From: Kitasatospora sp. NBC_01287
GTDB lineage: Bacteria > Actinomycetota > Actinomycetes > Streptomycetales > Streptomycetaceae
Direction: 5' to 3'
Assembly (NCBI RefSeq): GCF_026340565.1
Contig: NZ_JAPEPB010000002.1
Span: 744,001 to 808,000, forward strand
DNA: 64,000 nucleotides
Shown: positions 524 to 14,726 of the stretch, in pieces
Position numbering within the stretch: the stretch's first letter is position 1
Layout: each line of letters opens with the position of its first letter
Made by a program: the position numbers and the translations under genes
Notes under the pieces: model-generated
Databases searched by the model: none
What the model was told of the DNA's origin: nothing
The model's input: the letters and a program-made list of their open reading frames with translations, nothing else

Positions 524-877
524 ATGCGCCCGGAGAATGCCGAATCGGACACCGAGAACCGCTGCGTGTGCAGCGCCGGCAGACTCAGGGGGCGGGCGGT
601 CGCGCCCACCCTGACCGCACTGGCGCGGCTGTCGGAGCGCGAGCGGGAGGTGCTGCTGCTGATCGCCTCGGCCTACAGCGACGCGGAGATCGCCACCCGG
701 CTCTTCATCAGCCACCGCACCGTCCGCGCGCACGTCAGCGCCATCTTCGACAAGCTCGCGCTGGGCAGCCGGGTCGAGGCGGCGGTGGTCGGCACCTACG
801 GGCTGCTGGGCTGCGCCCATGCCACCGAGGCGCTGCGGCCGGACGGCGCCGGACTGCCCGTCCTCGACCTCGTCTGA
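524..877 (+). CDS. Short LuxR-type helix-turn-helix regulator
   Basis: A 117-residue protein. Its C-terminal half is a GerE/LuxR DNA-binding domain: LSEREREVLLLIA begins the scaffold and IATRLFISHRTVRAHVSAIF holds the recognition helix. There is no receiver, PAS or LAL ATPase domain, so it is close to a DNA-binding domain alone. ATG 524 is chosen because GGAAGG lies 7 nt upstream; an in-frame ATG at 404 lacks such a site. It is the first gene of the polyketide locus, reads toward it and is separated from it by a terminator, so pathway-specific regulation is plausible but inferred. Confidence 0.8.
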   Translation: MRPENAESDTENRCVCSAGRLRGRAVAPTLTALARLSEREREVLLLIASAYSDAEIATRLFISHRTVRAHVSAIFDKLALGSRVEAAVVGTYGLLGCAHATEALRPDGAGLPVLDLV

Positions 878-1304
878 GCGCCGGCCCCGGGCACGACGGG
901 GCAACGGTCGGGCAGGACTGTCAGAAGTGACGATGACGACTCTCTGACATAGCCATGACGATAGAGGCAGTGAAACCCGGCCGGGCGCCCGGACGGGTGG
1001 CACTGCCTTTTTCCCTGCCCGCTCCGTCTCCTCCCTGCCTTTCCGCGCTCCCTTATCCGCTTTCCCGGGCCTGCCGCCCGCCTGTTCCCGGCAACCGTCG
1101 GCGGCATTGTGCCGCCCCCGGATCGCGGCTGCCCGAATTCCGACCGGCACCGATTCCGACCGGCAATGATTCCGGCTGCCCGGATCCAGGCCGCCGCCCG
1201 GATTCGCCTCTCGAATCCGCCTCTCGAATTCGAGCGCCATCGCGCTTCCACGGCAGCACGACAGCACAGCAGCGCGGCCAATTCCTGACGACCTTGGGTG
1301 ACCC
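878..1304. other. Intergenic region: terminator plus repeats before the PKS genes
   Basis: After the terminator at 965-1012 the region is non-coding. It contains two 16-bp direct copies of an ATTCCGACCGGCA-type unit (1137-1152, 1153-1168) with a third partial copy, and a repeated GCCTCTCGAAT segment near 1205-1235. The promoter of the acyltransferase operon should lie here; no clear -10/-35 was recognised. Confidence 0.5.
965..1012 (+). terminator. Rho-independent terminator after the LuxR-type gene
   Basis: AGGCAGTG (965-972) pairs with CACTGCCT (1001-1008), with an inner ACCCG/CGGGT stem (975-979, 994-998), and runs into TTTTT (1008-1012). A T-tract of this kind is uncommon in such GC-rich DNA and makes the call solid. 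Confidence 0.8.
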
Positions 1305-2447
1305 ATGCGCACACTGCTCCTCTTCGACGGTCTGGGCGGCTCCTGCGCCGACCTGATCACGGACCTGCGCGAGCGCTACCGGCAACCGGAGAACCGCGCC
1401 TTCTTCAGCGCGGTCTGCGAGGCGGTGGAGTGCGCGCTCGACCACGTCGGCGGCGAGACCTACCGCCGGCTGCTGCCCGCCGGGCTGCCGCTGCGGTCCT
1501 GGCTGCGGGCACCGGCCGCACCACCGGTGGCTCCGAGCGACTCGATCAGCGCGGGTGTCTGCACCCACGCGCTCCAGCTCTGCCAGCTGCAGCCGACCGG
1601 CCGGCAGGCCGTGCCGGGCGCGACGGCGGTGGGTGCGCTCGGCCTGAGCCTGGGCCTGCAGGCCGCGATCGTCGCGGGGCTCGACGCCCGCCGACCCGGC
1701 ACCTTCCTCGACCTGTGCGGCCGCTCCATGCGGCTGGTCGTGCTCGCCCTGGTCCGGGGCCACCAGCTGACGGCAGCGGACACCGTGGACCCGGCGCTGG
1801 TCGGCCGGTACGCGCGCGGCCGGCCCGGCGCCCAGCCGCCCGCGCCGATGGCCTCGGTGACCGGCGTCGGCCACCGGGCCCTGGCGGAGGCGGTGGCGCG
1901 CCACAACACCCGCCACAACACCCGCCGCCCCGCCCCGGCGACCGCCGGGCGCGCCGTCGAGGTGGGGCTGGTCGCCTCGCCGCGCACCCAACTGCTGAGC
2001 GGGCACACCGAGGACCTGCTGGACTTCCACTTCGCCCACCAGCGGCTGCTCGACGGGCCCGGCGCGGGGTGGAGCTTCCTGCGCAACACGCTGCCGTTCC
2101 ACAGCGCCCGGCTGGCGCCGGCGGTGCGCTGGGACGCGCGCGACCGCGGCTTCCTCGGCGCCGGACCGAGCGGCGCCCAGCTGCGGTTCCCGGTCTACGC
2201 CACCGACGCCCCGCGCGACCTGCGGGAATCGCCCGATCTGAGCGCCGAGTTCGTCAACCTCATGCTGGTGCGCCCGGTGGACTGGCCGGCCACCGTGGCG
2301 CACGTGATGGACGCGAGCGCGCCCGAGCGCGCCATCGACTTCGGCCCGGGCCCGGCCGCGCGGATGTTCACCCGGGACTGCCTGCGCCCCGGCGGCCGCC
2401 GGCTGCGCTTCGACTCCGGCCCACGGGCCTCGTTGCAGGGAGGGTGA
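1305..2447 (+). CDS. Acyltransferase resembling starter-unit ACP transacylase (SAT) domains
   Basis: A 380-residue stand-alone protein with an acyltransferase fold. The nucleophile motif is GLSLG (Ser115), and a PFHS motif supplies His266 of the expected Ser-His dyad. The N-terminus (LLFDGLGGS) resembles the glycine-rich first strand of FabD/SAT proteins. It differs clearly from the second acyltransferase next door and is longer than FabD (~310). Family knowledge suggests it loads an acyl starter onto an ACP, but the substrate cannot be read from sequence. It is followed after 3 nt by the malonyl-type AT gene, whose ribosome binding site lies inside it, so the two are translationally coupled. 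A proofreading acyl hydrolase is an alternative. Confidence 0.65.
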   Translation: MRTLLLFDGLGGSCADLITDLRERYRQPENRAFFSAVCEAVECALDHVGGETYRRLLPAGLPLRSWLRAPAAPPVAPSDSISAGVCTHALQLCQLQPTGRQAVPGATAVGALGLSLGLQAAIVAGLDARRPGTFLDLCGRSMRLVVLALVRGHQLTAADTVDPALVGRYARGRPGAQPPAPMASVTGVGHRALAEAVARHNTRHNTRRPAPATAGRAVEVGLVASPRTQLLSGHTEDLLDFHFAHQRLLDGPGAGWSFLRNTLPFHSARLAPAVRWDARDRGFLGAGPSGAQLRFPVYATDAPRDLRESPDLSAEFVNLMLVRPVDWPATVAHVMDASAPERAIDFGPGPAARMFTRDCLRPGGRRLRFDSGPRASLQGG

Positions 2448-2450
2448 CCG

Positions 2451-3287
2451 ATGCACTGCCTACTGTTCCCCGGGCAAGGCGTCCAGCGCCGCGGTATGGG
2501 CGCGGGACTGTTCGAGGAGTACCCCGAGCTCACCGCGGCGGCGAGCGAGGCGCTCGGCGAGCCGATCGACGAGCTCTGCCTGCGCGACGAGCGGCGGCGG
2601 CTGCGGGACACCCGCTACGCCCAGCCTGCCATCTTCTTCGTCAACGCCCTGCTCGGCCTCAGGGCGCTGGCGGCCGACCCGGACGCCTACGCCTACCTCG
2701 CCGGGCACAGCCTGGGCGAGTACAACGCGCTGGTGCTGGGCGGCTGGCTGGACCTGCGGCAGGCCCTGACGCTGGTCGTGCGGCGCGCCGAGCTGATGGC
2801 GCAGGTGACCGGCGGTGGCATGGCCGCGGTGCTCGGCGTGCCGGGCGTGCTGGTCGAACGCGCCCTGCGGGAGACCCAGCTGTCCAAGGTCTACATCGCC
2901 AACCGGAACGCCGACACGCAGACCACCATCGCCGGTGACAGCGCCGAACTCCAGGCCGCCGCCCGGGCGATGGCGGCGCTGCCCGGCGCCCGGGTGGTCC
3001 GGATCAACGTCAGCGGGCCCTTCCACACGCCGCTGATGGAGCCGGTCCAGGCCGCGCTCGCCGAACTGCTGCGCGACTGCGCCTTCAGCACCGGTCGGCT
3101 GCCGGTGGTGTCGAGCGTCACCGGCGAACCCTTCGCGGCCGCGCACGCGGTCGAGCTGCTCAGCCGGCAGGTCTCGGCCCCGGTGGAGTGGACCCGCGCC
3201 GTGCGCACCCTGCGTGCGGCGGGGGTCTCGCACTTCGACGAGGTCAACGGCCGGACCCTGACGTCCCTCACGGAAGGAATCCGTTGA
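2451..3287 (+). CDS. Discrete malonyl-type trans-acyltransferase
   Basis: 278 residues, FabD-like: FPGQG at the N-terminus, GHSLGEYNAL around Ser87, a conserved RRAELM arginine segment and GPFHTP with His192. A GxFH-type motif with Phe before the catalytic His is the malonyl-type signature (methylmalonyl ATs have YASH). The EYNAL sequence after the nucleophile is common in trans-acting ATs of trans-AT polyketide synthases. It probably loads malonyl units onto the neighbouring PKS, which has no AT of its own. It overlaps the PKS start by 4 nt if the TTG at 3284 is used. Confidence 0.85.
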   Translation: MHCLLFPGQGVQRRGMGAGLFEEYPELTAAASEALGEPIDELCLRDERRRLRDTRYAQPAIFFVNALLGLRALAADPDAYAYLAGHSLGEYNALVLGGWLDLRQALTLVVRRAELMAQVTGGGMAAVLGVPGVLVERALRETQLSKVYIANRNADTQTTIAGDSAELQAAARAMAALPGARVVRINVSGPFHTPLMEPVQAALAELLRDCAFSTGRLPVVSSVTGEPFAAAHAVELLSRQVSAPVEWTRAVRTLRAAGVSHFDEVNGRTLTSLTEGIR

Positions 3288-6200
3288 GCCCCATGAGCCC
3301 TGTCAGCCCTGTCAGCCCTGACACCAGCGCCCCGAACACCGGCGGCCCGAACACCGGCGCCCCGAACACGGACCTCGCCATCGTCGGCATCGGCATCGAA
3401 CTACCCGGCGCCCACGACATCGAGGCGTACTGGCGGATCATCAGCTCCGGCACCAGCCTCACCCGGCCCTTCCCCGCCGACCGGGGCCAGCTGCTGACCG
3501 AGTACGTCCGCTACCTGCGGGCGACCACCGTCGAACCGGTCGCCGACACCGGGGTCGACTACTACGACGGCTGCTACCTGGACGAGGTGGACGGCTTCGA
3601 CCACGCCGTCTTCGGGATGAACCCCAAGCAGGCCGCCACCACCGACCCGCACCAGCGGCTGGCCCTGCGCACCATGTACCGCGCCATGGAGGACGCGGGC
3701 CACACCGGCGACCGGGTGCGCGGCAGCCGCACCGGCGTCTTCGTCGGCTTCGCCACCAACCCCGGCTCCACCTACCTGGACTACATCTGCCGGACCGACC
3801 CGGCGCTGGCCCAGCTCGCGCTGACCGGCAACATCCCGACCATGATGGCCAACCGGCTCTCCCACGTGCTCGACCTGCGCGGCCCCAGCCTGGTGGTCGA
3901 CACCGCCTGCTCCGCCTCGCTGGTCGCCGTCCACCAGGCCAAGAACGCGCTGCGCGCGGGCGACTGCGACCTCGCCGTGGTCGGCGGGGCCCGGATCGTC
4001 TTCGCGCCCGTGCGGCACCCGCACACCAGGATCGGCATCGAGGCGGCGGACGGGATCACCCGCACCTTCGACGAGTCCGCCGACGGCACCGGCTTCGGCG
4101 AGGGCGCGGGCGCGGTGGTGCTCAAGCGGCTGGCCGACGCGATCGCCGACGGCGACCGGATCCACGCCGTGCTCAAGGGCACGGCGGTCAACCACGACGG
4201 CCGCACCGAGGGGATCACCAACCCCGACTCCGACTCCCAGGCCGAACTCCTGCTGGCCGCCTGGCGTGACGCGGGCGTCGAGGGGCGCAGCATCGGCTAC
4301 CTGGAGGCGCACGGCACCGCCACCAGCGTCGGCGACCCGGTCGAGTACGAGGGCCTGCGCCGCGCCTTCGCCCGGCAGACCGCCGACCTGGGGTTCTGCG
4401 CGGTGGGCGCGGTCAAGGCCAACATCGGCCACCTCTTCGAGAGTTCCGGCGTGGTGGGGCTGATCAAGGCCGCGCTCACGCTCAAGTACCGCACCATCCC
4501 GCCACTGGCCAACTTCAAGGTCGCCAACCCGAGCATCGACTTCGCGGCCGGGCCGCTCTACGTGCCCACCGCCGCCGAACCCTGGACCGCCGAGGACGGG
4601 CCGCGGCGCAGCGGCGTCAGCGCGTTCGGCCTGGGCGGCACCAACGCCCATGCGGTGCTGGAGGAGTACACGGCCCCGCCGGCGCCGCCCGCCGCGCCCG
4701 GGCCGCGGCTCTTCGCGCTCAGCGCGGCGACCCCGGCCTCGCTGGAGCAGTTGGTCCGGCGCTACCTCGCGCTGATCGACCGCGGCGGGCTGGGCGGCGT
4801 CGAGTTCGCCGACGTCTGCCACACCGCCCGGGTGTCGCGCGCCGCGCACCGGCACCGGCTGGCGGTGATCGCCGGTGACCTGGCCCAACTGCGCGCCGGG
4901 CTCGCCCAGGGCACCGCCGGCACGCTGACCGACCTGACGACCGACCCGACCGACCCGACCGACCCGACCGCCCTCGACGATCCCCACTCCCCGCACGCCG
5001 CCGCCACCACCGCCGCCACTGCCTGGCTGGCCGGCGGCACGCTCGCGCCGCTGCCCGAGCCGGACGGCCGGCTGCCGCGGATCGTGGACCTGCCCGGCTA
5101 CGTGTACGACGACGCCACCGGCTGGATCGCCTTCCCGGACGACTGGCGCGAGCGGCTCGCCATCGCGCCCGAGGAGCGGCACCCGGCCACCCACAGCGTG
5201 GAGTTCCGCCCGGCCCCCGCGCCCGGCGCCCCGCAGGCGCCGGTGCGCGTCCTCGCCCTGGTCGGCCCCGAGGGCCCGGGCGGCGACGCGCGGGCCGCCC
5301 TCACCGCGGCCGCGGGCGGGCACGAGCTGCGGGTGCTGCGGCTGGCCGAGCCGGGCTCGCCGCAGGCCGAGGAGCCCGACCGGTTCACCCTGGACCCGGC
5401 CTCGCTGGACCGGATCGCCGAGCTGGTGCTGGACCACGACTACACCCACGTGGTGCACGCGCTCGCCTTCGAGCGCGGCCCGGCCGCCTCCGTCGACGAG
5501 CTCGACCGCCGGGTGCGGACCAACCTGCGCAGCCTCTTCCTGCTCGCCAAGTCCCTGATGACGCACGGGGTGAAGACCACCCTCGCGGTGCTCAGCCGCC
5601 AGGCCGTGCCCGCCGAGCAGGGCGAGGTCTGCGCGGTGGAGAACGCCTCGCTGGTGGGCCTGGCCAAGGCGGTCACCCGCGAGTACCCGTACCTGAGCAC
5701 CCTGGTGGTCGACGTCGACGACGCGGTGCCGGCCGAAGCGCTGGGCGCCCGGCTGCTCGCCCCGGAGCCGGGCGTCTTCGTGCTGCGCGGCGAGCGCGAA
5801 CTGCGCGAGTTCTTCGCCGAGTTGCCCGAGGTGCCGGCCGATGGACCCGCCGAGTACCTGCGGCCCGGCGGCGTCTACCTCATCACCGGCGGCACCGGGG
5901 CGCTCGGCCTGGCGGTGGCCCGCTGGTTCGCCGAACGGCAGTCCGGGCTGACCCTGGTGCTGCTCAGCCGCTCCGGCCTGCCGCCGCGCGAGCAGTGGCC
6001 CGCCGTGGTCGCCGCCGGCCCCGAACACCCGATGGCCGAGCGGGTCCTGGCCGTCCAGGAGCTGGCGGAGCTGGGCGCCACCGTCGAGGTGCGCGCCACC
6101 GACGCGGGCGACCCGGCCGCGCTGGCCGCCGCCGCCACCGAACTGCTGGACCGGTACGGGCGGATCGACGGCATCGTGCACGCGGCCGGCCTGCCCGGCG

Positions 6201-7111
6201 GCAGCACCCTGATCTTCCGCGAGCCGGACGACTTCGACGCGGTCCTGCGGCCCAAGATGCACGGCGCCTTCGTGCTCGACCAGGCGACCCGGGACAACCG
6301 CCCCGACTTCGTCGTGCACTTCTCCTCGGTCGCCGCCGTCTTCCCCGCCCCCGGGCAGGGCGACTACGCGGCCGCCAACTACTACCTGGACGCGCTGGCC
6401 GCGGCCAACGCCGACCGGCGCTGCCACGTGCTGGCCGTCGACTGGGTGGCCTGGCGGGAGATCGGCATGGCGGTGACGTACGGCAGCAACGGCGACACCA
6501 CCTTCAAGAGCCTGCCCACCGCGACCGCCCTGTCGATCATGGACGCCGGGCTCAGGTCCCGCACCAGCCGGATCTTCGCCGGCGAGGCCCACTACGGCGG
6601 CGAACTGATCCACCTGCTCGACTCCTTCGACGTCGCCCTCGCTCCCGAGGTCGGGGCCAAGGTGACGGCCGCGGTCGCCGCCGCCGAGGGCCGGCTGCGC
6701 CAGGCCGCCGACCGGATCAGGAGCGCGGTGGCCGCCGTCACCGTCGAGCTCACCGGCCGGCCGGAGGGCGACTACACCCCGGTGGAGCGCACCATCGCCC
6801 GCTGCATGGCCCAGGCCTTCGGCTACGCCGCGCTGGACCTGGAGGACGACTTCTTCGACCTCGGCGGCGACTCGATCATGGCCGCCTCGGTGGCGGGCAC
6901 CATCTCGGCCTGCCTGGGCGTCCGGTTCGACGTGGCCGACCTGCTGGCCGACCGGACGATCTCGGAGATCGCCTACCACCTCGAATCCTCCGGCGAGCTG
7001 CCCTTCGACGCCGACACCGACATCGACGCCTACACCGACACAACCGCCTGCACGAACACCCACACGAACACCCACACGAACACCGACTCCGACGCCAACT
7101 CCGACGCCTAG
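3284..7111 (+). CDS. Single-module trans-AT polyketide synthase (KS-KR-ACP)
   Basis: About 1275 residues. A ketosynthase covers roughly residues 25-450, with Cys209 in DTACSAS, His343 in EAHGTA and His383 in NIGHL. No AT follows. A linker ends in a GYVYDDATGWI segment, then come the KR structural subdomain and catalytic KR (GGTGALGL NADPH site, Ser1015, Tyr1028, Asn1032). An ACP follows with GGDS at Ser1197. There is no DH, ER or thioesterase. The C-terminus ends in a low-complexity Thr/Asn/His/Asp tail. TTG 3284 sits 6 nt after GGAAGG and overlaps the previous stop; ATG 3293 is the alternative. The enzyme probably performs one condensation and ketoreduction, or works iteratively, using acyl groups from the two upstream ATs. 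Confidence 0.9.
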   Translation: MSPMSPVSPVSPDTSAPNTGGPNTGAPNTDLAIVGIGIELPGAHDIEAYWRIISSGTSLTRPFPADRGQLLTEYVRYLRATTVEPVADTGVDYYDGCYLDEVDGFDHAVFGMNPKQAATTDPHQRLALRTMYRAMEDAGHTGDRVRGSRTGVFVGFATNPGSTYLDYICRTDPALAQLALTGNIPTMMANRLSHVLDLRGPSLVVDTACSASLVAVHQAKNALRAGDCDLAVVGGARIVFAPVRHPHTRIGIEAADGITRTFDESADGTGFGEGAGAVVLKRLADAIADGDRIHAVLKGTAVNHDGRTEGITNPDSDSQAELLLAAWRDAGVEGRSIGYLEAHGTATSVGDPVEYEGLRRAFARQTADLGFCAVGAVKANIGHLFESSGVVGLIKAALTLKYRTIPPLANFKVANPSIDFAAGPLYVPTAAEPWTAEDGPRRSGVSAFGLGGTNAHAVLEEYTAPPAPPAAPGPRLFALSAATPASLEQLVRRYLALIDRGGLGGVEFADVCHTARVSRAAHRHRLAVIAGDLAQLRAGLAQGTAGTLTDLTTDPTDPTDPTALDDPHSPHAAATTAATAWLAGGTLAPLPEPDGRLPRIVDLPGYVYDDATGWIAFPDDWRERLAIAPEERHPATHSVEFRPAPAPGAPQAPVRVLALVGPEGPGGDARAALTAAAGGHELRVLRLAEPGSPQAEEPDRFTLDPASLDRIAELVLDHDYTHVVHALAFERGPAASVDELDRRVRTNLRSLFLLAKSLMTHGVKTTLAVLSRQAVPAEQGEVCAVENASLVGLAKAVTREYPYLSTLVVDVDDAVPAEALGARLLAPEPGVFVLRGERELREFFAELPEVPADGPAEYLRPGGVYLITGGTGALGLAVARWFAERQSGLTLVLLSRSGLPPREQWPAVVAAGPEHPMAERVLAVQELAELGATVEVRATDAGDPAALAAAATELLDRYGRIDGIVHAAGLPGGSTLIFREPDDFDAVLRPKMHGAFVLDQATRDNRPDFVVHFSSVAAVFPAPGQGDYAAANYYLDALAAANADRRCHVLAVDWVAWREIGMAVTYGSNGDTTFKSLPTATALSIMDAGLRSRTSRIFAGEAHYGGELIHLLDSFDVALAPEVGAKVTAAVAAAEGRLRQAADRIRSAVAAVTVELTGRPEGDYTPVERTIARCMAQAFGYAALDLEDDFFDLGGDSIMAASVAGTISACLGVRFDVADLLADRTISEIAYHLESSGELPFDADTDIDAYTDTTACTNTHTNTHTNTDSDANSDA

Positions 7112-7124
7112 CCAGGGACATCCC

Positions 7125-8519
7125 ATGACGGACCTGACCGAGGGCCCCGTGCTCTCCCGGATCGTCGGCTTCGCCCTGCCGCTGACCCTGGCCGACCTGC
7201 TGCAGCAGGGCTACCTGCTGGTCGACAGCATCATCGTGGGCCGCTACGTCGGCATCGACGGCCTCGCGGCCGTCGGTGCCGGCCAGCCGCTCTTCTACCT
7301 GATGAACGCCATGTTCATCGGCATCGGCACCGCCTTCACCATCCGACTGGCCCACCTCACGGGCGCCCGGGAGGGCACCGAGGTCCGCGCCGTCGCCCGC
7401 TCGCTCACCCTCTTCACCGTCGCCTGGAGCCTGGGCGCGATGCTGCTGACCGTGCTGCTCGCCCGCTTCGCCTTCGACCTGATCGGCATCCACGGCCAAC
7501 TGGTCCACCAGAGCCGCCAGTTCCTGGACACCCTGGCGCTCGGCTTCCCGGCGATCTTCGGCGGCGCGGCGGTCAGCGCGTTCCTGCGCGGCTTCGGCGC
7601 CTCGCGGGCGGCGATGTGGATCCAGGGCCTGGGCAGCGTGGTGAACGCCGCGCTGGCCTGGTTCTTCGTCGCCGGGCTCCACCTGGGCGTGGCGGGCGCG
7701 GCGCTGGCCACGGTCGCGGCCGCCACGCTGGCCCTGGCGGTCGGCGGGGTGCACCTGCGCCGCGCCTACCGGCTGGGCCCGCGCACGGGCGAACCCGCCG
7801 TGCGCAAGGAGCTGACCGAGGCGCTGCGGCTGGGCGCGCCACTGGCGATCCAGCACATCGGCCTGGCCCTGGGCATCATGGTGCTGGTCTGGATCATCGC
7901 GGGCTTCGGCCCGGTCTGCCTGGCCGCCTTCACCGTGGTGGGCCGGCTGGAGCTGTTCACCTCGCTGCTCTTCCTCGACCTCTCCGGCGGCCTGTGCGCG
8001 TTCGTCGCGCAGAACCTGGGCGCGGGCCGCGCCGAGCGCATCCGCGCCGGACTGCGGCAGGCCGTGCTGCTCACCGTCGGCCTCACCGTGCTGGTCTCGG
8101 CCCTGGTGCTGCTCGGCCGCACCCCGATCGCCGACCTGTTCACCGCCGATCGGCAGGCCCGGGCACTGACGGTGCGCTACCTCCTGATCACCTATCCCTT
8201 CTTCGCCTGCTACACCGTGATGGTGGTGGTCCACGGCTACCTCAACGGCGCCCGGCGCACCGCCGTCCCGCTGGTCTGCACCGTGCTCGCCTTCGGGCTG
8301 ACCCAGGTCCCCGCCGCCTACCTGCTGCACCGGCCGCTCGGGATCGACGGGGTGATGTGGGCGGTGGTGCTGGGCTGGAGCGTCGGGCTGGCCTACACGC
8401 TCTTCTCGGTGCGCCACCAACTGCGCCCGGTGCCGGCCGGCGCGGCGGTGGACGCGCCCGCTCCGGACCCGGCCCACCCCACGGAACAGGCCGAGGAGGC
8501 TGCCACATGGGCGACATGA
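7125..8519 (+). CDS. MATE-family efflux transporter
   Basis: 464 residues of alternating hydrophobic segments, about 12 membrane spans in two similar halves. The N-terminal half carries the MATE pattern of a first helix followed by LVDSIIVGRYVG and LAAVGAGQP. MATE proteins export small organic molecules using Na+ or H+ gradients. It begins 13 nt after the PKS stop and overlaps the next gene by 13 nt, so it belongs to the same operon and probably exports the product. The substrate is unknown. Confidence 0.88.
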   Translation: MTDLTEGPVLSRIVGFALPLTLADLLQQGYLLVDSIIVGRYVGIDGLAAVGAGQPLFYLMNAMFIGIGTAFTIRLAHLTGAREGTEVRAVARSLTLFTVAWSLGAMLLTVLLARFAFDLIGIHGQLVHQSRQFLDTLALGFPAIFGGAAVSAFLRGFGASRAAMWIQGLGSVVNAALAWFFVAGLHLGVAGAALATVAAATLALAVGGVHLRRAYRLGPRTGEPAVRKELTEALRLGAPLAIQHIGLALGIMVLVWIIAGFGPVCLAAFTVVGRLELFTSLLFLDLSGGLCAFVAQNLGAGRAERIRAGLRQAVLLTVGLTVLVSALVLLGRTPIADLFTADRQARALTVRYLLITYPFFACYTVMVVVHGYLNGARRTAVPLVCTVLAFGLTQVPAAYLLHRPLGIDGVMWAVVLGWSVGLAYTLFSVRHQLRPVPAGAAVDAPAPDPAHPTEQAEEAATWAT

Positions 8520-10090
8520 CGGTCCGTCAGATCGACTTCTCCGGCGGCCGCTCCCGCACCGTGCCGCTCGCCTGGGGGCAGCGCACCGCCTGGGAGGACA
8601 TCGGCCACTACCTGCCCGAGCTGAAGGCCTTCTTCGTCCTCACCCGGCGGGTACCGGTCCCCGCGGGCCTCGGCCTGGCGGCCATCACCGACGCGCTGCG
8701 GGTGCTGCTGGAGCGCCACGAGTCGCTGCGCAGCCGCTACCGCGCCCTGCCGGCGGCAACCGGCACCACGCCCGGCACCGCACCCGACATCATGCCCGGC
8801 GCCGCACCCGCCAGCGGTCCCGGCACGGCCGAGCGGCAGGTGGTCCAGCAGGTGCTGCCCGCCGGCCTGGTGCCGCTCACCTTGGTCGAGTGGGGGCCCA
8901 CGGACCCGCTGCCCTTCGCGGCCGCCGTCGAGCGGGCCGAACAGGCGATGGTCGGCGCCCGCATCGAGCACGCGAGCGAGCCGCCCGTCCGGTTCCGCGT
9001 GGTGACCCGCGCGGGCGAGGCGGCACTGGTGCTCCTCGGGGTCTCGCACCTGGCCGCCGACGCGCGGGCCGTCGACCTGCTGATGGCCGAACTGGCCGGC
9101 CTGCTCGCCGCGGCGGCCGCGGGCGCACCCACCCCGCCGCCGTGGACCAGCTGGCAGCCCGCCGACCAGGTGGCCTTCGAGCAGTCACCGGCCGGCATGC
9201 TGCGCAACGCGGCGTCGCTGCGGCGGCTGCGCGGGCAACTGGCTTCCGCCACAGCGGCGTTCCCCGAGCCGCTACCGCCGCCGCGCCATCCCGGGCATCC
9301 GCGCTACCTGTGCGGCCGCCTGGAGTCGCGGGCCGTCCCGCTCGCGCTGCGGGTGCTCGCCCGCCGCCACCGCACCGGCGGCTCGGCCGTGCTGCTCGCC
9401 GCCACCGCCGCCCTCACCCGCGCGCTGACCGGCGCCGAGCGGTGCACCTTCGCCCTGGTGGCGGCCGGACGCACCGACCCGCGCGCCGCCCAGTTCGCCG
9501 TCTCCAGCCTCAGCCAGACCACCTGGGCCACCCTGGACACCGCCGTGGACAGCTTCGCCGAACTGACCGCGGCCGCCGCCACCGCCCTCGCGGAGGCCGA
9601 CCGGCACTGCCCGTACGATCCGCTGGCCGCCCGGGCCCTGGTCCGCGACCTGGAGCGGCGGCGCGGCACGGCGCTCGACCTGGGCTGCCGTTTCAACGAC
9701 ATGTGGGCCTGGACCAGGAAGCAGCCCGTCCGCGAGCTGCCCGACCACGCCGCCGTCCAGGCAGCCACGTCCGCCGGCCGCCTGTGCTGGCCGGCCGACC
9801 AGGCCACCGACAACGACCGGATCACCCTCTCGGTGAACGTCTACGGCACCGCGGACCGGATCATCCTCGACGCGCTCGCCGACACCTTCCGCCTGCCCCG
9901 CCCGCGCCTGGCCGCACTGCTGCTCGGCTACGAGCGGCTGCTGGTGGAGCTGGTCGCCCGCGACGTGCCACCGGCCGAGACCGCCCGCCTGCTGGAAGGA
10001 GACCGCAGGTGTTCACCCGGGTTTCCCGGGCAGACGGGAGTCAACAGCGGAAACGTCTCGCGCCTGCTGTGCGGGCCGGAGTCGGAGTGA
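8507..10090 (+). CDS. Stand-alone NRPS condensation-domain-like enzyme
   Basis: 527 residues with the layout of a condensation (C) domain: an early LRVLLERHESLRSRY segment, then SHLAAD (His181, Asp185) where canonical C domains have HHxxxDG, then C-terminal segments of the second CAT-like lobe. The second, catalytic His and the structural Asp are kept; the first His is Ser and the Gly is Ala. No adenylation or carrier domain is attached. ATG 8507 follows GAGGAGG by 7 nt and overlaps the MATE gene. In this locus it could release the ACP-bound polyketide by forming an ester or amide, since no thioesterase is present. That role is inferred. Confidence 0.75.
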   Translation: MGDMTVRQIDFSGGRSRTVPLAWGQRTAWEDIGHYLPELKAFFVLTRRVPVPAGLGLAAITDALRVLLERHESLRSRYRALPAATGTTPGTAPDIMPGAAPASGPGTAERQVVQQVLPAGLVPLTLVEWGPTDPLPFAAAVERAEQAMVGARIEHASEPPVRFRVVTRAGEAALVLLGVSHLAADARAVDLLMAELAGLLAAAAAGAPTPPPWTSWQPADQVAFEQSPAGMLRNAASLRRLRGQLASATAAFPEPLPPPRHPGHPRYLCGRLESRAVPLALRVLARRHRTGGSAVLLAATAALTRALTGAERCTFALVAAGRTDPRAAQFAVSSLSQTTWATLDTAVDSFAELTAAAATALAEADRHCPYDPLAARALVRDLERRRGTALDLGCRFNDMWAWTRKQPVRELPDHAAVQAATSAGRLCWPADQATDNDRITLSVNVYGTADRIILDALADTFRLPRPRLAALLLGYERLLVELVARDVPPAETARLLEGDRRCSPGFPGQTGVNSGNVSRLLCGPESE

Positions 10091-10096
10091 GCAGAG

Positions 10097-10567
10097 ATGA
10101 GTGTGAGTGACCTGGAGGCCGTCGCCCTCGCGGTGCTGCCCGATCTGCCGGCGCACGGGCAGATCCGCCGGCTCGCCCTGAGCGGCACCGCAGGGACGGT
10201 CGGACGCGCCCGCGACCACACCCGCCGCGCCCTGCACGACTGGGGTTGGCTGCCGACCCAGGACCCGGACCAGCGGGCCCGCGCCGACGACGTCCTGCTC
10301 CTCGTCTCCGAACTCGTCACCAACGCCTGCCGCCACACCGACGGGCCCGAGCACCTCACCCTGCGTGCCACCCCCACCCGGCTGCGCATCGAGGTCACCG
10401 ACACCGACCCCACCCACCCCGCGCCCCGCCGCCCCCACCTCGCCACCAGTCTCGGCGGCCACGGCCTGCACACCGTCGCCCTCCTCGCCAGCCGCTGGGG
10501 CAGCGCCCCCCACCCCGACCGACCCGGCAAGACCGTCTGGGCCGAGATCGACCTCCCCACCCCCTGA
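10097..10567 (+). CDS. RsbW-like anti-sigma factor / GHKL ATP-binding protein
   Basis: 156 residues with a HATPase_c fold of the anti-sigma type. The N-box is SELVTNACRHT, and a GGHGLHTVALLAS segment gives the ATP lid and G-box. No transmembrane or receiver segment is present. Proteins of this family bind and inhibit SigB/F-type sigma factors or phosphorylate anti-sigma antagonists. It starts 7 nt after the condensation-like gene and faces a SigB/F-type sigma gene across a shared terminator. The pairing is suggestive but unproven, because actinomycetes carry dozens of such ATPases. Confidence 0.75.
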   Translation: MSVSDLEAVALAVLPDLPAHGQIRRLALSGTAGTVGRARDHTRRALHDWGWLPTQDPDQRARADDVLLLVSELVTNACRHTDGPEHLTLRATPTRLRIEVTDTDPTHPAPRRPHLATSLGGHGLHTVALLASRWGSAPHPDRPGKTVWAEIDLPTP

Positions 10568-10618
10568 ACCCCCCACCAGCTGAACCACCGCACATCACGC
10601 GCGCAGCACGCCGGACAT

Positions 10619-10667
10619 GCCGAGCGCCCGTCCACCCGACCAGGAACCGGGTGGACGGGCGCTCGGC
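10619..10667. terminator. Bidirectional hairpin terminator
   Basis: A perfect 19-bp inverted repeat (10619-10637 with 10649-10667) with an 11-nt loop lies between the converging stops of the RsbW-like gene and the sigma factor gene. No T-tract is present. Confidence 0.8.
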
Positions 10668-10675
10668 GCGTCGGC

Positions 10676-11608
10676 TCACTCCTCGGCGAGCAGCGCGGTG
10701 CGCAGCGAGCCGAGCGTGCGGTTGAGCAGCCGGGAGACGTGCATCTGGGAGATGCCCAGCTGCTTGCCGATCTGCGCCTGGGTGAGGTCGGCACCGAAGC
10801 GCAGCGAGAGGATCGTCCGGTCGCGCTCGGGCAGCGCGGCGATCAGCGGCTTCAGCGCGTGCAGGCCCAGGATCAGCTCGTAGCGGGACTCCTCGGTGGT
10901 GAGCCGGTCGGCCATCGGCTGCGGGCTGCCGCCGCGCGGGTCGTCCTGGACGGGCGGAGCGTCCAGCGAACGGGTGCTCTGCGCCTGGGCGGCGGTCAGG
11001 CCCTCGGCCACCTCGGCCTCGGTCAGCTCCAGGTGCTCGGCCAGCTCGGCGGTGGTGGGGACCCGGTCCAGCGCCTGCTCCAGCGCGTCGGAGGCCTTGG
11101 CCAGTTCGAGGCGCAGCTCCTGCAGGCGGCGCGGCACGTGGACCATCCAGCCGGTGTCGCGGAAGAAGCGCTTGATCTCGCCGCTGATGGTGGGGATGGC
11201 GAAGGTGGAGAACTCCACCTCGTAAGCGGGATCGAACCGGTCGATGGCCTTGATCAGCCCGACCACGCCGACCTGGACGATGTCCTCCTGCGGCTCGCTG
11301 CGGTGCCGGAAGCGCGAGGCGGCGAACTTCACCAGCGCCATGTTCAGCTCGATCAGCGTGGCCCGGACGTAGGAGTACTCGTCGGTGCCCTCCTCGGCCG
11401 CGCGCAGGCGGGCGAAGAGCACCTTCGACAGCGCGCGGGCGTCGGTCGGGCAGACCCGCGCCAGATCGTCCTCGACCGCGATCCCGATCCGTGAGGCGGC
11501 GTCCCGCAGGTCGCGGGCACCCTCGATCGCCCCCTGCGCGGCGGCCGGGCCCTGGACCTCGTGATCGACGCGGACGTCGGACTGGGCGACAGTCGCTGTG
11601 GCCGGCAT
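10676..11608 (-). CDS. SigB/SigF-family RNA polymerase sigma factor
   Basis: 310 residues. Region 2 is visible as a LIELNMALVKFAASRF to FSTFAIPTISGEIKRFFRDTGW stretch. Region 3 follows with VHVPRRLQELRLEL, and region 4 ends with LTQAQIGKQLGISQMHVSRLL. These match stress and sporulation sigma factors of the SigB/F/G group. ATG 11608 is chosen because AGAGGAGAG precedes it; longer in-frame starts lack such a site. It is convergent with the RsbW-like kinase gene. A large regulon for envelope or osmotic stress is typical of the family, and the neighbouring MscS channel would fit. Confidence 0.88.
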   Translation of the reverse strand: MPATATVAQSDVRVDHEVQGPAAAQGAIEGARDLRDAASRIGIAVEDDLARVCPTDARALSKVLFARLRAAEEGTDEYSYVRATLIELNMALVKFAASRFRHRSEPQEDIVQVGVVGLIKAIDRFDPAYEVEFSTFAIPTISGEIKRFFRDTGWMVHVPRRLQELRLELAKASDALEQALDRVPTTAELAEHLELTEAEVAEGLTAAQAQSTRSLDAPPVQDDPRGGSPQPMADRLTTEESRYELILGLHALKPLIAALPERDRTILSLRFGADLTQAQIGKQLGISQMHVSRLLNRTLGSLRTALLAEE

Positions 11609-11760
11609 GCTCTCTCCTCTGGCTACGGGCCCGCTCGGGGCCGCTGACGTGACGCGGGACCGCCTCCCCGCTTCACGCCACACCATGTCCGACTCCACGA
11701 AATAGCCAGGGGCTTTTCACATAGCCATCACATCCGACCGAGGTTCTTCATCGATTCCCT

Positions 11761-11832
11761 CAGCTCCATCAGCTCCGTCAGCTCCGTCAGCTCCGTCAGC
11801 TCCGTCAGCTCCGTCAGCTCCGTCAGCTCCAT
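11761..11832. repeat. 9-bp tandem repeat, eight copies
   Basis: Eight head-to-tail copies of CAGCTCCGT (first and last end in CAT) run from 11761 to 11832. They stop exactly at the last base of the MscS stop codon. They lie in the gap between the MscS and sigma factor genes. Copy number may vary between strains. Confidence 0.9.
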
Positions 11833-12881
11833 CAGTCGCCCACCGCCGACCCCCGATAGGTGAGGTCGATCCGGGGCAGCGCCTCGGGCGCGTGCTCGCG
11901 CAGGTAGGCGATCAGCCGCTCGCGGATCCAGCAGCGCAGCTCGAAGGCGTCCGCGGCGTTGCGGGCGGTCATCAGCGCGCGCACCACGATGGTGCTGGGG
12001 GTGGTGTCGACCAGTTGCAGGGCGCTGCCGACCCCGTCCCACCACTGGCACTCCTTCAGCAGCCGGTCGAACTCGGCGCGCAGCTCGTCCAGCGGTGCCC
12101 GGTGGTCCAGGTGGAGCAGGGCGGTGCCGGTGATCGCGGGGTCGCTCCGGGACCAGTTCTCGAACGGCTTGCCGACGAAGTAGGAGACCGGCATGACGAT
12201 CCGCCGCTGGTCCCAGGTCGCGATCACCACAGAGGTCAGGGTGACCTCCTCGACCACACCCCAGTCCCCCGCGACCACCACGTTGTCGCCCAGGCGGACC
12301 ATGTCGCCGAAGGCCAGCTGGATGCCGGCGAACAGGTTGGCCAGGGTGCTCTGCGCGGCGACCCCGACCACCAGGGTCACCAGGCCCGCCGAGGCGAGCA
12401 GGCTGGCGCCCACCGAGCGGACCGCCGGGAAGGTCATCAGCGCGCTCGCCAGCGCCACCACGGCGATGGCGGCCGCGCTCAGCCGGCGCAGCATGCCGGT
12501 CTGGGTGCGCACCCGGCGTATCCGGGCCGGGTCGCGGCGGTCGGTCGCGTACCGGGCCAGCGAGGTGTCGATCAGCAGCGCCAGCAGCCGGGCGAGCAGC
12601 CAGGCACCGGCGGCCATGGCGGCGAGCAGCAGCGCGTGGCGGATCGGACCGCGGGCGGCGCCCGGCAGGCCCGCGCCCGGCTCGGCGGCCAGCAGCAGCA
12701 TGCTGGCCAGGGTGGCCAGGGTGGGCACCCGGCAGCCGCGCAGCAGCCGGCGCAGTTGCTGGCCGGGCCGCCGGCCGGGCAGGTGGCGGGCCAGCAGCAG
12801 CACGGCGCGGTCGAGCGCGGCGGTCGCCAGGGCGACCCCGCCGGCCAGCGCGAGCGGCCTGAGCAGGCTCCAGAGAGACAT
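11832..12881 (-). CDS. MscS-family mechanosensitive ion channel
   Basis: 349 residues with four or five hydrophobic N-terminal segments. The conserved pore-lining helix and first beta domain follow: SAGLVTLVVGVAAQSTLANL, FAGIQLAFGDMVRLGD, then a DWGVVEEVTLTSVVIATWDQRRI motif typical of the MscS beta domain. A soluble C-terminal alpha/beta domain completes it. MscS channels open under membrane tension to release solutes during osmotic downshock. ATG 12881 is preceded by AGGAG. The channel gene is followed by the sigma factor gene on the same strand. Confidence 0.88.
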   Translation of the reverse strand: MSLWSLLRPLALAGGVALATAALDRAVLLLARHLPGRRPGQQLRRLLRGCRVPTLATLASMLLLAAEPGAGLPGAARGPIRHALLLAAMAAGAWLLARLLALLIDTSLARYATDRRDPARIRRVRTQTGMLRRLSAAAIAVVALASALMTFPAVRSVGASLLASAGLVTLVVGVAAQSTLANLFAGIQLAFGDMVRLGDNVVVAGDWGVVEEVTLTSVVIATWDQRRIVMPVSYFVGKPFENWSRSDPAITGTALLHLDHRAPLDELRAEFDRLLKECQWWDGVGSALQLVDTTPSTIVVRALMTARNAADAFELRCWIRERLIAYLREHAPEALPRIDLTYRGSAVGD

Positions 12882-13124
12882 CCGACTCCTCATCGGTCGT
12901 GGCGCACGGCGGGCGGTCGCGGTTCGCCTGTCCGCACCCGGTGCCGGCAAACCGCTGCCGGCCCCAGCGGGCTCCCCCGCCCCGGGCCGGCCGGTCCGAA
13001 TCGGCGGCGGCGGATCGGCATGGACCGCCCGGCACCGGGCAGACGGGCCAGCCGAGGGGCGGGGCCGACCCGGTCCGGGGCCGACCGCGCCCAGACCACC
13101 GAAGCGCCACCGGGAGGCCGGGCC

Positions 13125-13568
13125 ATGCCAGAGACAGTCGAGTACCTCACCTCCGGACGACTCGCCGGCCCGCTGCCGCGCACCCTGCGGCTCGCGCTGC
13201 GCTACCGCGCCGACGACCCCTACGCCGTGAACCTCTGCTTCCCCGGCCCCGCCCTGCTGGGCGAGGGCCTGGTCGTCGAGGACGGCGGCCCGGCGGCGGA
13301 CGGGCTGCACTGGACGGTCGGCCGGGAGCTGCTGGAGGAGGGCACCCGGCGGGCGGCCGGCCTGGGCGACCTGCGGATCCGGCCCGGCGCGGACGACACG
13401 GTCCGCCTGGAGTTCCACGCGGCGGACGGCTACGCCGCCTTCCACCTGGACCACGCCGACCTGCGCGGCTTCCTGGACGCGAGCTACCGCCTGGTGCCGC
13501 CGGGCACCGAGGACGAGCGGTGCGCCTGGCCGGCGACGGCCGAGGAGTTCGCCAACCGCCTCTTCTGA
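13125..13568 (+). CDS. SsgA-family sporulation/cell-division regulator
   Basis: 147 residues. The protein has the SsgA-like (SALP) pattern: LALRYRADDPYAVNLCF near the start, WTVGRELLEEG in the centre and an acidic FANRLF end. SALPs are confined to morphologically complex actinomycetes and control septum placement and spore-wall synthesis. ATG 13125 follows GGGAGG. The gene stands alone, divergent from the MscS gene. Which SALP subgroup it belongs to cannot be decided by eye. Confidence 0.85.
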   Translation: MPETVEYLTSGRLAGPLPRTLRLALRYRADDPYAVNLCFPGPALLGEGLVVEDGGPAADGLHWTVGRELLEEGTRRAAGLGDLRIRPGADDTVRLEFHAADGYAAFHLDHADLRGFLDASYRLVPPGTEDERCAWPATAEEFANRLF

Positions 13569-13600
13569 GCGCTCCCGCGCCGGATCCGCCCGGCCTGCCA

Positions 13601-13686
13601 CGGCCCCGCGCGAGGGGATCGCACCAGAGCAGCGGCGAGCGGAGGGCGATCCCGGTGGCCGCGGCCCCGCGCGACGGGATCGCACC
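13601..13686. repeat. 25-bp direct repeat pair
   Basis: CGGCCCCGCGCGAGGGGATC... at 13601-13625 recurs at 13662-13686 with one mismatch, 61 bp apart, in the 234-nt gap between the SsgA-like gene and the YihY gene. The copies could be regulator sites for the YihY promoter or simple duplication. Confidence 0.65.
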
Positions 13687-13802
13687 CCGGCCGAGCGGGG
13701 GAAATCACCGGCCCCGGCGCATGACCGCACCCGGAGCGGGGATGCGCAGGGGAGGAAGGTGGTCGAAATGGGTGCTCCGCTGATCGCACGAGGGTGTCCG
13801 GC

Positions 13803-14726
13803 ATGCCCCGGGCCCGGCCGCTGAACGGCACCCGCACCGCCGTGCTCGACCGCGCCGCGCTGGCCGCCGGGGCCGCGGTGACAGCCGGACGGGCGCTGCT
13901 CGCCGCGCTGCCCGGCGCCGGGCAGGCACTGCGGGCGGCCGCCGCCGAGCTGTGGCAACGGGGGCGCGAGGTCGAACTGCTGCAGCGGTCGATGGCCTTC
14001 GCGGCCCTCTTCTTCGTGACCCTGGTGCCGCTGCTGGTGGTGATCGCCGCCGCCTCACCGGCCGGCGGCGACGGCATCACCGGCTGGATCACCGACGGCC
14101 TGGGCCTGAGCAGCCGCGGCACCGAGGCGGTCAGCGCGCTCTTCGCCTCCCAGCACGAGGTGCTCAGCACCACCACGGGCTTCAGCCTGGCCGCACTCGC
14201 CTTCTTCGGACTGTCGCTGATCGCCTCGATGCAGACCGCCTACGAGCGGATCTGGCAGCTGCCGCGCGGCCCCTGGCACACCGCGTGGCGGCAGGCGGTG
14301 GGCCTGGCGGGGGTGATCGGCTACGTGGTGATCGCCGCCTGGAGCGGCGAGCCGTTCAGCGGCAGCGCCGCGCAGCCCACCCTGCGGATCGCGGCCACGG
14401 TGCTCGGCGGCGCGCTGCTCTTCTGGTGGCTGCAGCGCCTGCTGCTCTCCGCCCGGGTGCCGTGGCGCACCCTGCTGCCCGGGGCGCTGGCCACCATGGC
14501 GGCGCTGGCGGGCCTGCGGTTCTTCTCCCGGCTGGTCTTCGCGCCGCTGCTGGTCTCCAACGCCGTCTCCTACGGCACGGTGGGCACGGTGCTGGTGGTC
14601 CAGTCCTGGCTGATCGGGGTCGGGTTCACCGTCTACGGCGGCGCGCTGGCCGGCCGCGCGCTGCACGCCCGATCCGCCCCTCCCGAGCGGCCGGAGCGGC
14701 CCGAGCGCACCGACGTGGCGGGCTGA
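13803..14726 (+). CDS. YihY/BrkB-family inner-membrane protein
   Basis: About 307 residues with six hydrophobic segments. They begin at SMAFAALFFVTLVPLLVVIA and include an LIASMQTAYERIWQLP motif characteristic of YihY/UPF0761 proteins, then VSYGTVGTVLVVQSWLIGVG near the end. Function is poorly defined; older annotations as ribonuclease BN are wrong. ATG 13803 is preferred because GAGGG lies 8 nt upstream; GTG 13794 lacks a site. It converges on the TetR gene with only 16 nt between stops. Confidence 0.8.
   Translation: MPRARPLNGTRTAVLDRAALAAGAAVTAGRALLAALPGAGQALRAAAAELWQRGREVELLQRSMAFAALFFVTLVPLLVVIAAASPAGGDGITGWITDGLGLSSRGTEAVSALFASQHEVLSTTTGFSLAALAFFGLSLIASMQTAYERIWQLPRGPWHTAWRQAVGLAGVIGYVVIAAWSGEPFSGSAAQPTLRIAATVLGGALLFWWLQRLLLSARVPWRTLLPGALATMAALAGLRFFSRLVFAPLLVSNAVSYGTVGTVLVVQSWLIGVGFTVYGGALAGRALHARSAPPERPERPERTDVAG

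Follow-up and report, generated by a model that had tools for sequence, protein, structure and literature searches.

How might a polyketide synthase (PKS) that consists of a single module, and that carries no acyltransferase (AT) domain, be primed, extended and unloaded? This question is raised by a locus in Kitasatospora sp. NBC_01287, found in a stretch of 64,000 nucleotides (the window) on contig C2 (864,765 bases) of the 9.49-Mb genome. Five co-directional genes at positions 1305-10090 of the plus strand encode two free-standing acyltransferases (AT1 and AT2), a PKS with ketosynthase (KS), ketoreductase (KR) and acyl carrier protein (ACP) domains, a MATE-family exporter, and a condensation-like protein, termed C. 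We propose, with a probability of roughly 60%, that these genes form a self-contained trans-AT operon in which AT1 primes the module, AT2 supplies malonate, the KS and KR build a hydroxyacyl group, C transfers this group, and the MATE protein exports the product.

A first-pass annotation of the window had arrived at a similar picture. Every gene that it named was located with domain or profile matches, as was a LuxR-type gene upstream, and its gene set, trans-AT module, probable priming AT, transfer enzyme and exporter are supported. The picture changes in that AT1 belongs to another group, the arrangement is not unique and C is not obligatory. From AT1 to MATE, the intervals between genes are 3, 5 and 13 bases, and the last pair (MATE and C) overlaps by 13 bases; therefore, the earlier description of the five genes as tightly coupled is right. 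The features of the operon, all on the plus strand, are as follows.

1305-2447, +: AT1, a free-standing acyl (acetyl) transferase of the type I fatty acid synthase (FAS-I) type, 380 residues; Ser115 in GLSLG, His266 in PFHS
2451-3287, +: AT2, FabD-like, a probable malonyl transferase; Ser87, His192 and Arg112; Acyl_transf_1, E 1.5e-26
3293-7111, +: single AT-less PKS module, KS-KR-ACP; Pfam and NCBIfam domain matches
3371-4852, +: KS with its C-terminal associated region; PF00109, PF02801 and PF16197; Cys206, His340 and His380 of the protein starting at 3293
4709-4900, +: post-KS linker, CurL-like (PF22621, E 1.4e-12) and also RhiE-like (PF22336, E 2.1e-7), running into the KR region with no intervening AT
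5870-6460, +: KR catalytic subdomain; PF08659, E 2.1e-46; Lys988, Ser1012, Tyr1025 and Asn1029
6791-6979, +: ACP, with the phosphopantetheine Ser1194 in GGDSIM; PF00550, E 1.1e-13
7125-8519, +: MATE-family exporter; PF01554, E 2e-47, 161.3 bits versus a cut-off of 24.9; TIGR00797 above cut-off
8507-10090, +: protein C, free-standing member of the condensation superfamily, with SHLAAD replacing HHxxxDG; Pfam Condensation, E 1e-6, below cut-off

AT1 is a free-standing FAS-I-type acyltransferase

AT1 has no Pfam or NCBIfam match at an E value of 1e-3, and no Pfam match even at E 10. Profile searches, the predicted fold and a tree identify it as a free-standing version of the AT (acetyltransferase) domain of type I FASs, within the clan that includes the SAT domains of fungi. 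A phmmer search of the PDB with the single AT1 sequence produced nine matches, every one of which is a fungal FAS beta subunit (best E 2e-5). When a 12-row AT1 profile was used, the AT region of fungal FAS beta matched with an E value of 3.6e-28 and the best FabD-type chain with 7.1e-11. Among trans-AT enzymes, DisD gave 1.6e-7, and PksE and PksC gave ~2e-3. The catalytic Ser and His are present in all 12 aligned rows. The predicted AT1 model (pLDDT 83.8, pTM 0.88) has a VIA Z of 40.7 with residues 154-532 of yeast FAS beta, 29.7 with the SAT domain of CTB1, 28.9 with the N-terminal region (42-384) of Mycobacterium tuberculosis FAS-I and 27.9 with the best FabD, and a shared fold is by itself no proof of function.

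Both acyltransferases of the operon have counterparts in bacterial FAS-I, of which four reading frames (2978-3169 residues) were compared. In three of these, the AT1 profile matches the N-terminal AT, and the AT2 profile matches a second domain, whose start lies at about residues 1262-1423 and which we take as the MPT; in the fourth (L067), the AT2 profile alone passed 1e-4. An AT tree of 37 rows, among them four FAS-I ATs and two near-identical PKS AT rows, splits AT1 and the four FAS-I ATs from AT2, MPT, FabD-like proteins (including BamD and L069) and PKS ATs with a support of 100/99. The FAS-I AT closest to AT1 among those sampled lies in a 2978-residue frame (L070, contig C8 of G450) from a 2.4-Mb genome of the same class. 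Its branch, a long one, connects to AT1 with a support of 95/86.

Several observations weigh against this assignment, or limit what it implies. The AT1 profile gives parts of the FabD-type proteins BamD (43.2 bits) and L069 (44.1 bits) higher scores than two mycobacterial-type FAS-I ATs (28.2 and 28.6 bits), and the L070 AT (54.9 bits) is the sole FAS-I AT that outscores both. Long branches are flagged in the AT tree. AT1 can be recognised as belonging to the same superfamily as AT2 (94.9%), and kinship with FAS-I ATs does not fix the specificity of AT1.

The first-pass annotation had noted two dissimilar stand-alone ATs upstream of the PKS. Both are present, but AT1 belongs to a different group and is not merely dissimilar. 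Because AT1 is kin to FAS-I AT domains, we infer that it is likely to load the starter, a role that had also been suggested for one of the two ATs. AT1 resembles the FAS-I AT domain of fungal beta subunits and bacterial FAS-I in fold over ~350 residues, in its Ser and His, in profile and in tree position. However, the FAS-I domain is buried in a synthase of 2000-3200 residues, whereas AT1 is a separate protein beside a PKS module. The SAT domains of fungal non-reducing PKSs (CTB1 and CazM) share the fold (Z of 28-30) and the proposed starter role with AT1. Fungal SATs often use a Cys nucleophile; AT1 differs from them in being bacterial, in being a separate protein, in having a Ser nucleophile, and in having a partner module that retains a KR. 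If AT1 does load a starter in trans, it would bring a separate bacterial protein into a clan whose other members here are parts of FASs and fungal PKSs, and it may help to explain the origin of SAT and AT domains.

Paired ATs are common in trans-AT clusters, where one is often an editor of the PedC/PksE type. AT1 might instead act as an editing hydrolase that frees the ACP of stalled acyl chains; the KS would then be primed through decarboxylation of a malonyl group or with an acyl-ACP of outside origin. The presence of the Ser and His would suit such an enzyme, as would the FabD-type proteins that still score with the AT1 profile. However, this profile is far from PksE (E 2e-3, compared with 3.6e-28 for the FAS AT), and AT1 separates from the FabD-like rows in the AT tree (PksE not being among the rows). 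The nucleophile motif, which is GLSLG in three of the 12 AT1 rows (the window's lineage) and GHS in the rest, a difference with no known meaning, also speaks against editing. We consider an editing role rather unlikely and prefer starter loading.

The PKS is a single AT-less module

In the PKS protein (3293-7111), Pfam finds KS, KR and ACP domains and no AT or thioesterase, as had been described. No dehydratase (DH), enoylreductase or thioesterase was found in the operon, and no GxSxG-type AT motif occurs within 450 residues after the KS in any of 14 family members. Nine catalytic or cofactor positions of the PKS are invariant in nine of nine rows. The protein scores 634.9 bits with the NCBIfam model NF045894 (PKS_plus_SDR), below its cut-off of 1740. 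The KR, read by eye, has neither the LDD motif that marks B-type KRs nor the Trp that marks A-type KRs. A multimodular assembly line is usual, although not strictly defining, for trans-AT PKSs; here there is one module.

The cluster does contain a discrete malonyl-type AT. The best NCBIfam model for AT2 is fabD (E 1e-68; 231.9 bits, under the cut-off of 260.9), and its Ser, His and Arg are present in five of five aligned rows. AT2 is adjacent to AT1 in the 18 unbroken operons described below. AT2 is thus FabD-like and probably a malonyl transferase, and its presence beside an AT-less module makes it probable that malonate is supplied in trans, as the first-pass annotation had it.

The affiliation of the KS was examined with a tree of 35 rows (14 operon KSs, 11 trans-AT and 10 cis-AT reference domains), with references from plasmid records and from this genome. 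The 14 operon KSs form a group (100/99) with the AT-less KS of BamA and with two KSs from Alkalihalophilus, and the eight KSs compared from host cis-AT modules lie outside it; such a phylogeny had been proposed as a check on the trans-AT reading, and its outcome agrees with that reading. By bit score, BamA is the nearest (399, with all others at most 363). In a ranking of PDB chains with the KS alone, most of the top 15 are AT-less KSs, and three chains are labelled AT-less. This ranking counts as weak support, because RhiE, among other trans-AT chains, comes far down in it. The operon shares an AT-less module, a discrete malonyl-type AT, and the type of KS and post-KS linker with the trans-AT PKSs that have the nearest sampled KSs (BamA of bacillomycin D and the Alkalihalophilus plasmid cluster). 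It differs in its single module, in that no thioesterase was found, and in a second AT from another group.

Other features of the KS comparison count against a trans-AT affiliation. The references are few, and the trans-AT references do not form one group in the tree. By identity, BamA (43.9%) is tied with a Methylosinus KS (43.9%) and with two KSs of Burkholderia glumae that bear a cis-AT (42.8 and 43.8%). One of the B. glumae KSs falls with the host cis-AT KSs, and the other beside the operon group at weak support (82/57). The two B. glumae identities would fit an ordinary cis-AT PKS that has lost its AT, with the two free-standing ATs unrelated to it. The host is also rich in PKS modules, and all eight of its own KSs checked have an AT motif downstream. 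However, the operon KSs group with AT-less KSs, and the adjacent AT1 and AT2 genes lie upstream of the PKS gene in all 18 unbroken operons. An ordinary PKS minus its AT is therefore very improbable, and we retain the trans-AT reading. The host genome has 94 matches to the ketoacyl-synthase family in total, including two other groups on contig C2.

The operon occurs in two forms across several genera

AT1 was used as the marker in surveys of genome samples that overlap and that each include the window's own genome. It has matches in six of 70 genomes of the genus sample, 12 of 394 of the family sample (E 1e-25) and two of 396 of the phylum sample (E 1e-25). In the class sample, searched at E 1e-6, 25 of 394 genomes have a match; three of these exceed 300 bits, and the other 22 reach at most 59.6 bits. 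In a collection of named genomes, a peptide pattern occurs in 62 stretches, eight of which encode relatives. The eight are from Kitasatospora sp. GAS204B, K. phosalacinea, Umezawaea endophytica, U. tangerina, Saccharothrix sp., Kutzneria viridogrisea, Actinokineospora sp. and a record labelled Streptomyces sp. SID13031. The operon is thus rare yet scattered over several genera. Among 72,556 plasmid records, none has an AT1 match; relatives of C are on 19 of the plasmid records, and the three neighbourhoods opened contain no such operon.

The gene order AT1-AT2-PKS-MATE-C is present in 10 distinct genomes from six named genera (the window, G054, G061, the named records L022, L023, L024, L025, L026 and L028, and G164). 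Proteins of these operons are ~68-86% identical to those of the window in the two other genomes of the genus, and ~34-68% in other genera. The recurring gene order, together with the invariance of the catalytic residues checked, means that the operon is not a product of chance.

A second form, found in eight genomes (G009, G063, G023, G268, G719, G525, G629 and G475), has near full-length matches to the first four genes and lacks C. These operons carry an orphan protein, termed X, whose gene adjoins AT1 in all eight cases, divergently in three (G009, G063 and G023) and co-directionally in five. C and X do not occur together in any of 19 loci, one of them broken (tblastn at 1e-5 or 1e-3, in the stretches searched, several of which end at contig ends). 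With 10 C-type and eight X-type operons, the arrangement is not unique to the window. AT1 and AT2 are adjacent to each other and upstream of the PKS gene in all 18, and gene calling at the loci read gave no further PKS gene next to the operon.

The broken locus (G509) is a decayed operon. An insert of ~6 kb, in which a recombinase-like open reading frame (ORF) was named by eye, interrupts its X gene (L096, 4279-11225). AT1 is present, and there is no PKS or MATE match within the 19.9-kb stretch.

In an X-type Kitasatospora operon (L020 and L027), the MATE protein is longer. It has 973 residues in L020, where it carries a C-terminal domain resembling PMT_2 glycosyltransferases. Proteins of two further loci (L018 and L019), also X-type and from Kitasatospora, match this fusion over 921-926 of its 973 residues.

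C and X are candidate release enzymes

Protein C scores 28.2 bits with the Pfam Condensation family (PF00668), just under the cut-off of 30.6. A C profile matches a PCP-C didomain (E 3.8e-13) and SgcC5 (2.3e-9). In the SHxxAD motif, the second His and the Asp are kept in eight of eight rows, the first His is Ser in all eight, and the Gly is not kept. All 50 Foldseek matches listed are nonribosomal peptide synthetase (NRPS) or NRPS/PKS-related (E to 2e-15), with an rmsd of 10-16 from a mediocre model. From these matches, C is probably a transferase that moves an acyl group from an ACP to an amine or alcohol; a poor model (mean pLDDT 66, pTM 0.45) is a point against it. SgcC5 and CmnI, presumably the C-1027 and capreomycin enzymes, are free-standing condensation enzymes of the same superfamily. 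C differs from both in its SHxxAD motif, in having the ACP of a PKS as its partner carrier, and in an identity of only 18-19% in the Foldseek alignments. A C-like transfer enzyme, as originally suggested, is thus supported in the C-type operons. However, C is not obligatory, because X stands in for it in the second lineage.

X is a protein of ~350-460 residues encoded in the X-type operons and not in the window (L027, 8621-9898, and homologs). Its sequence suggests that it is possibly a distant papain-fold transferase like BtrH of butirosin biosynthesis. In a comparison of profiles, X and BtrH_N gave a moderate, co-linear match in which Cys, His and Asp line up (51% probability, E 1.5e-4 one-to-one). 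The letter-reversed control gave 0.05% and 0.84. The BtrH_N profile was built from proteins of the genus at 15 of 20 loci (omitting L104, L110, L111, L112 and L113). When X was compared with a single BtrH_N protein, the match was weak (2.4%).

Against such a relation, two X proteins have no Pfam match at E 10, and the members tested have no NCBIfam match at E 1. The BtrH_N family itself (PF14399) has no match at the X loci of four genomes; it passed the cut-off in one genome, elsewhere. A PDB profile search with X produced one chance-level row (RAD50). The relation of X to BtrH_N is therefore not established.

Two reports describe BtrH as an acyl carrier protein:aminoglycoside acyltransferase (PMC10318531; PMC8430323). 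X may have the Cys-His-Asp order and the co-linear profile match in common with BtrH, whereas it falls under Pfam thresholds and lies outside the window. Because BtrH transfers from an ACP, C and X could carry out the same kind of transfer if X is BtrH-like. They could then be alternative means of handing an acyl chain over from the ACP to an amine or an alcohol. The operons thus provide a natural experiment in release chemistry, with C swapped for X while the core is conserved.

Proposed pathway and its acceptor

In the pathway that we infer, AT1 would load the ACP or the KS with an acyl starter (our default guess being acetyl), and AT2 would place malonate on the ACP. A single round of condensation by the KS and reduction by the KR would yield a 3-hydroxyacyl-ACP; an iterating module would yield a longer polyhydroxyacyl chain. 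C (or X) would then take this chain from the ACP and attach it to an amine or alcohol group on a molecule that the cell makes elsewhere, and the MATE protein would export the conjugate.

Genes flanking 15 loci were compared (L092-L096 were excluded, and ORFs matching HATPase or LacI references were removed first). The only flank families common across genera are major facilitator superfamily transporters (the window region, L016 and L025), one further family of two members, from L023 and L028, and ORFs that shadow the core genes. Neighbours are shared among loci of one genus. Because the flanks are largely unrelated across genera, the operon looks like the unit. A point against the proposed pathway is that, in the loci examined, the surroundings of the operon revealed no conserved candidate for an acceptor pathway.

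Condensation-superfamily proteins are able to form esters, SgcC5 being an example. Alternatively to the proposed pathway, the module might iterate, or C might act on its own products and join 3-hydroxyacyl units head to tail. The resulting oligoester, linear or cyclic, would not require an acceptor from outside, which would account for the lack of conserved neighbours and for the largely unrelated flanks. A KR without a DH leaves each unit hydroxyl-ended, and the match of C to SgcC5 (2.3e-9) fits ester formation. Iteration would also not be the first case in a trans-AT system, because it has been published for mupirocin (PMC10098928). However, nothing observed points directly to iteration or to oligomers here, and an X of the BtrH kind would argue for an amine as the acceptor. 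An oligoester product seems unlikely, and we favour transfer to a cellular molecule.

Another possibility is that the operon serves as an accessory to some other assembly line or lipid pathway located elsewhere in each genome. The numerous ketoacyl-synthase-family matches in the host could provide such partners, and the PMT_2 domain fused to the MATE protein of L020 (and similarly of L018 and L019) hints at envelope or glycoside chemistry. However, the operon has its own exporter and transfer enzyme, and its neighbour genes are mostly different in each genus. An accessory role is quite unlikely, and the self-contained operon remains our preferred reading.

More tentatively, and with somewhat less than even confidence, these operons may constitute a distinct class of one-module system. 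In this class, both AT functions of FAS-I would act in trans on an AT-less KS-KR-ACP protein. Release would be an exchangeable cassette, either of the condensation type or an unrelated papain-like acyl-ACP:amine transferase. Each operon would add a short hydroxyacyl group to a cellular molecule for export. If AT1 does load the starter in trans, the operon would be a natural and very small system with priming, extension, release and export on separate genes, which would be handy for enzymology and engineering.

No description of the five-gene operon, and no product tied to its gene order, was found in the literature searched, which included PMC4661987 and lacked most subscription papers, and no curated cluster database was searched. 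The possibility of an existing product assignment had been raised by the first-pass annotation, which knew of none. Trans-AT PKSs, FAS-I ATs and free-standing condensation domains are each known, and their combination here is new within the literature covered. A single-module PKS of the amipurimycin type was suspected, and the literature search, within the same coverage, linked no paper on it to the operon.

Neighbouring genes

A probable regulator gene lies upstream of the operon, 427 bases from AT1 and outside the tight five-gene set.

524-877, +: LuxR-type helix-turn-helix protein, probable regulator; Pfam GerE, E 2.4e-16

Its ORF is open from position 404, and both close homologs (86% in L016 and 85% in L017) begin at the codon equivalent to 524. 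Among the loci examined, this genome, G054 and G061 are alone in having a LuxR-type gene next to the operon; none was called elsewhere.

Downstream, a HATPase gene (10097-10567) was considered as an operon member and ruled out because it is absent behind the C gene in G054 and G061. L018 and L064 also have HATPase-like ORFs in their flanks, and LacI-like ORFs lie close to L018 and L019. The HATPase gene, a sigma-factor-like gene and a large minus-strand ORF (the last two named by eye) occupy positions 10097-13958, between C and the next conserved neighbour (13794-14726). A homolog of this neighbour directly follows C in G054 and, as judged by eye, in G061. Thus, the stretch at 10097-13958 was either inserted here or lost in the others.

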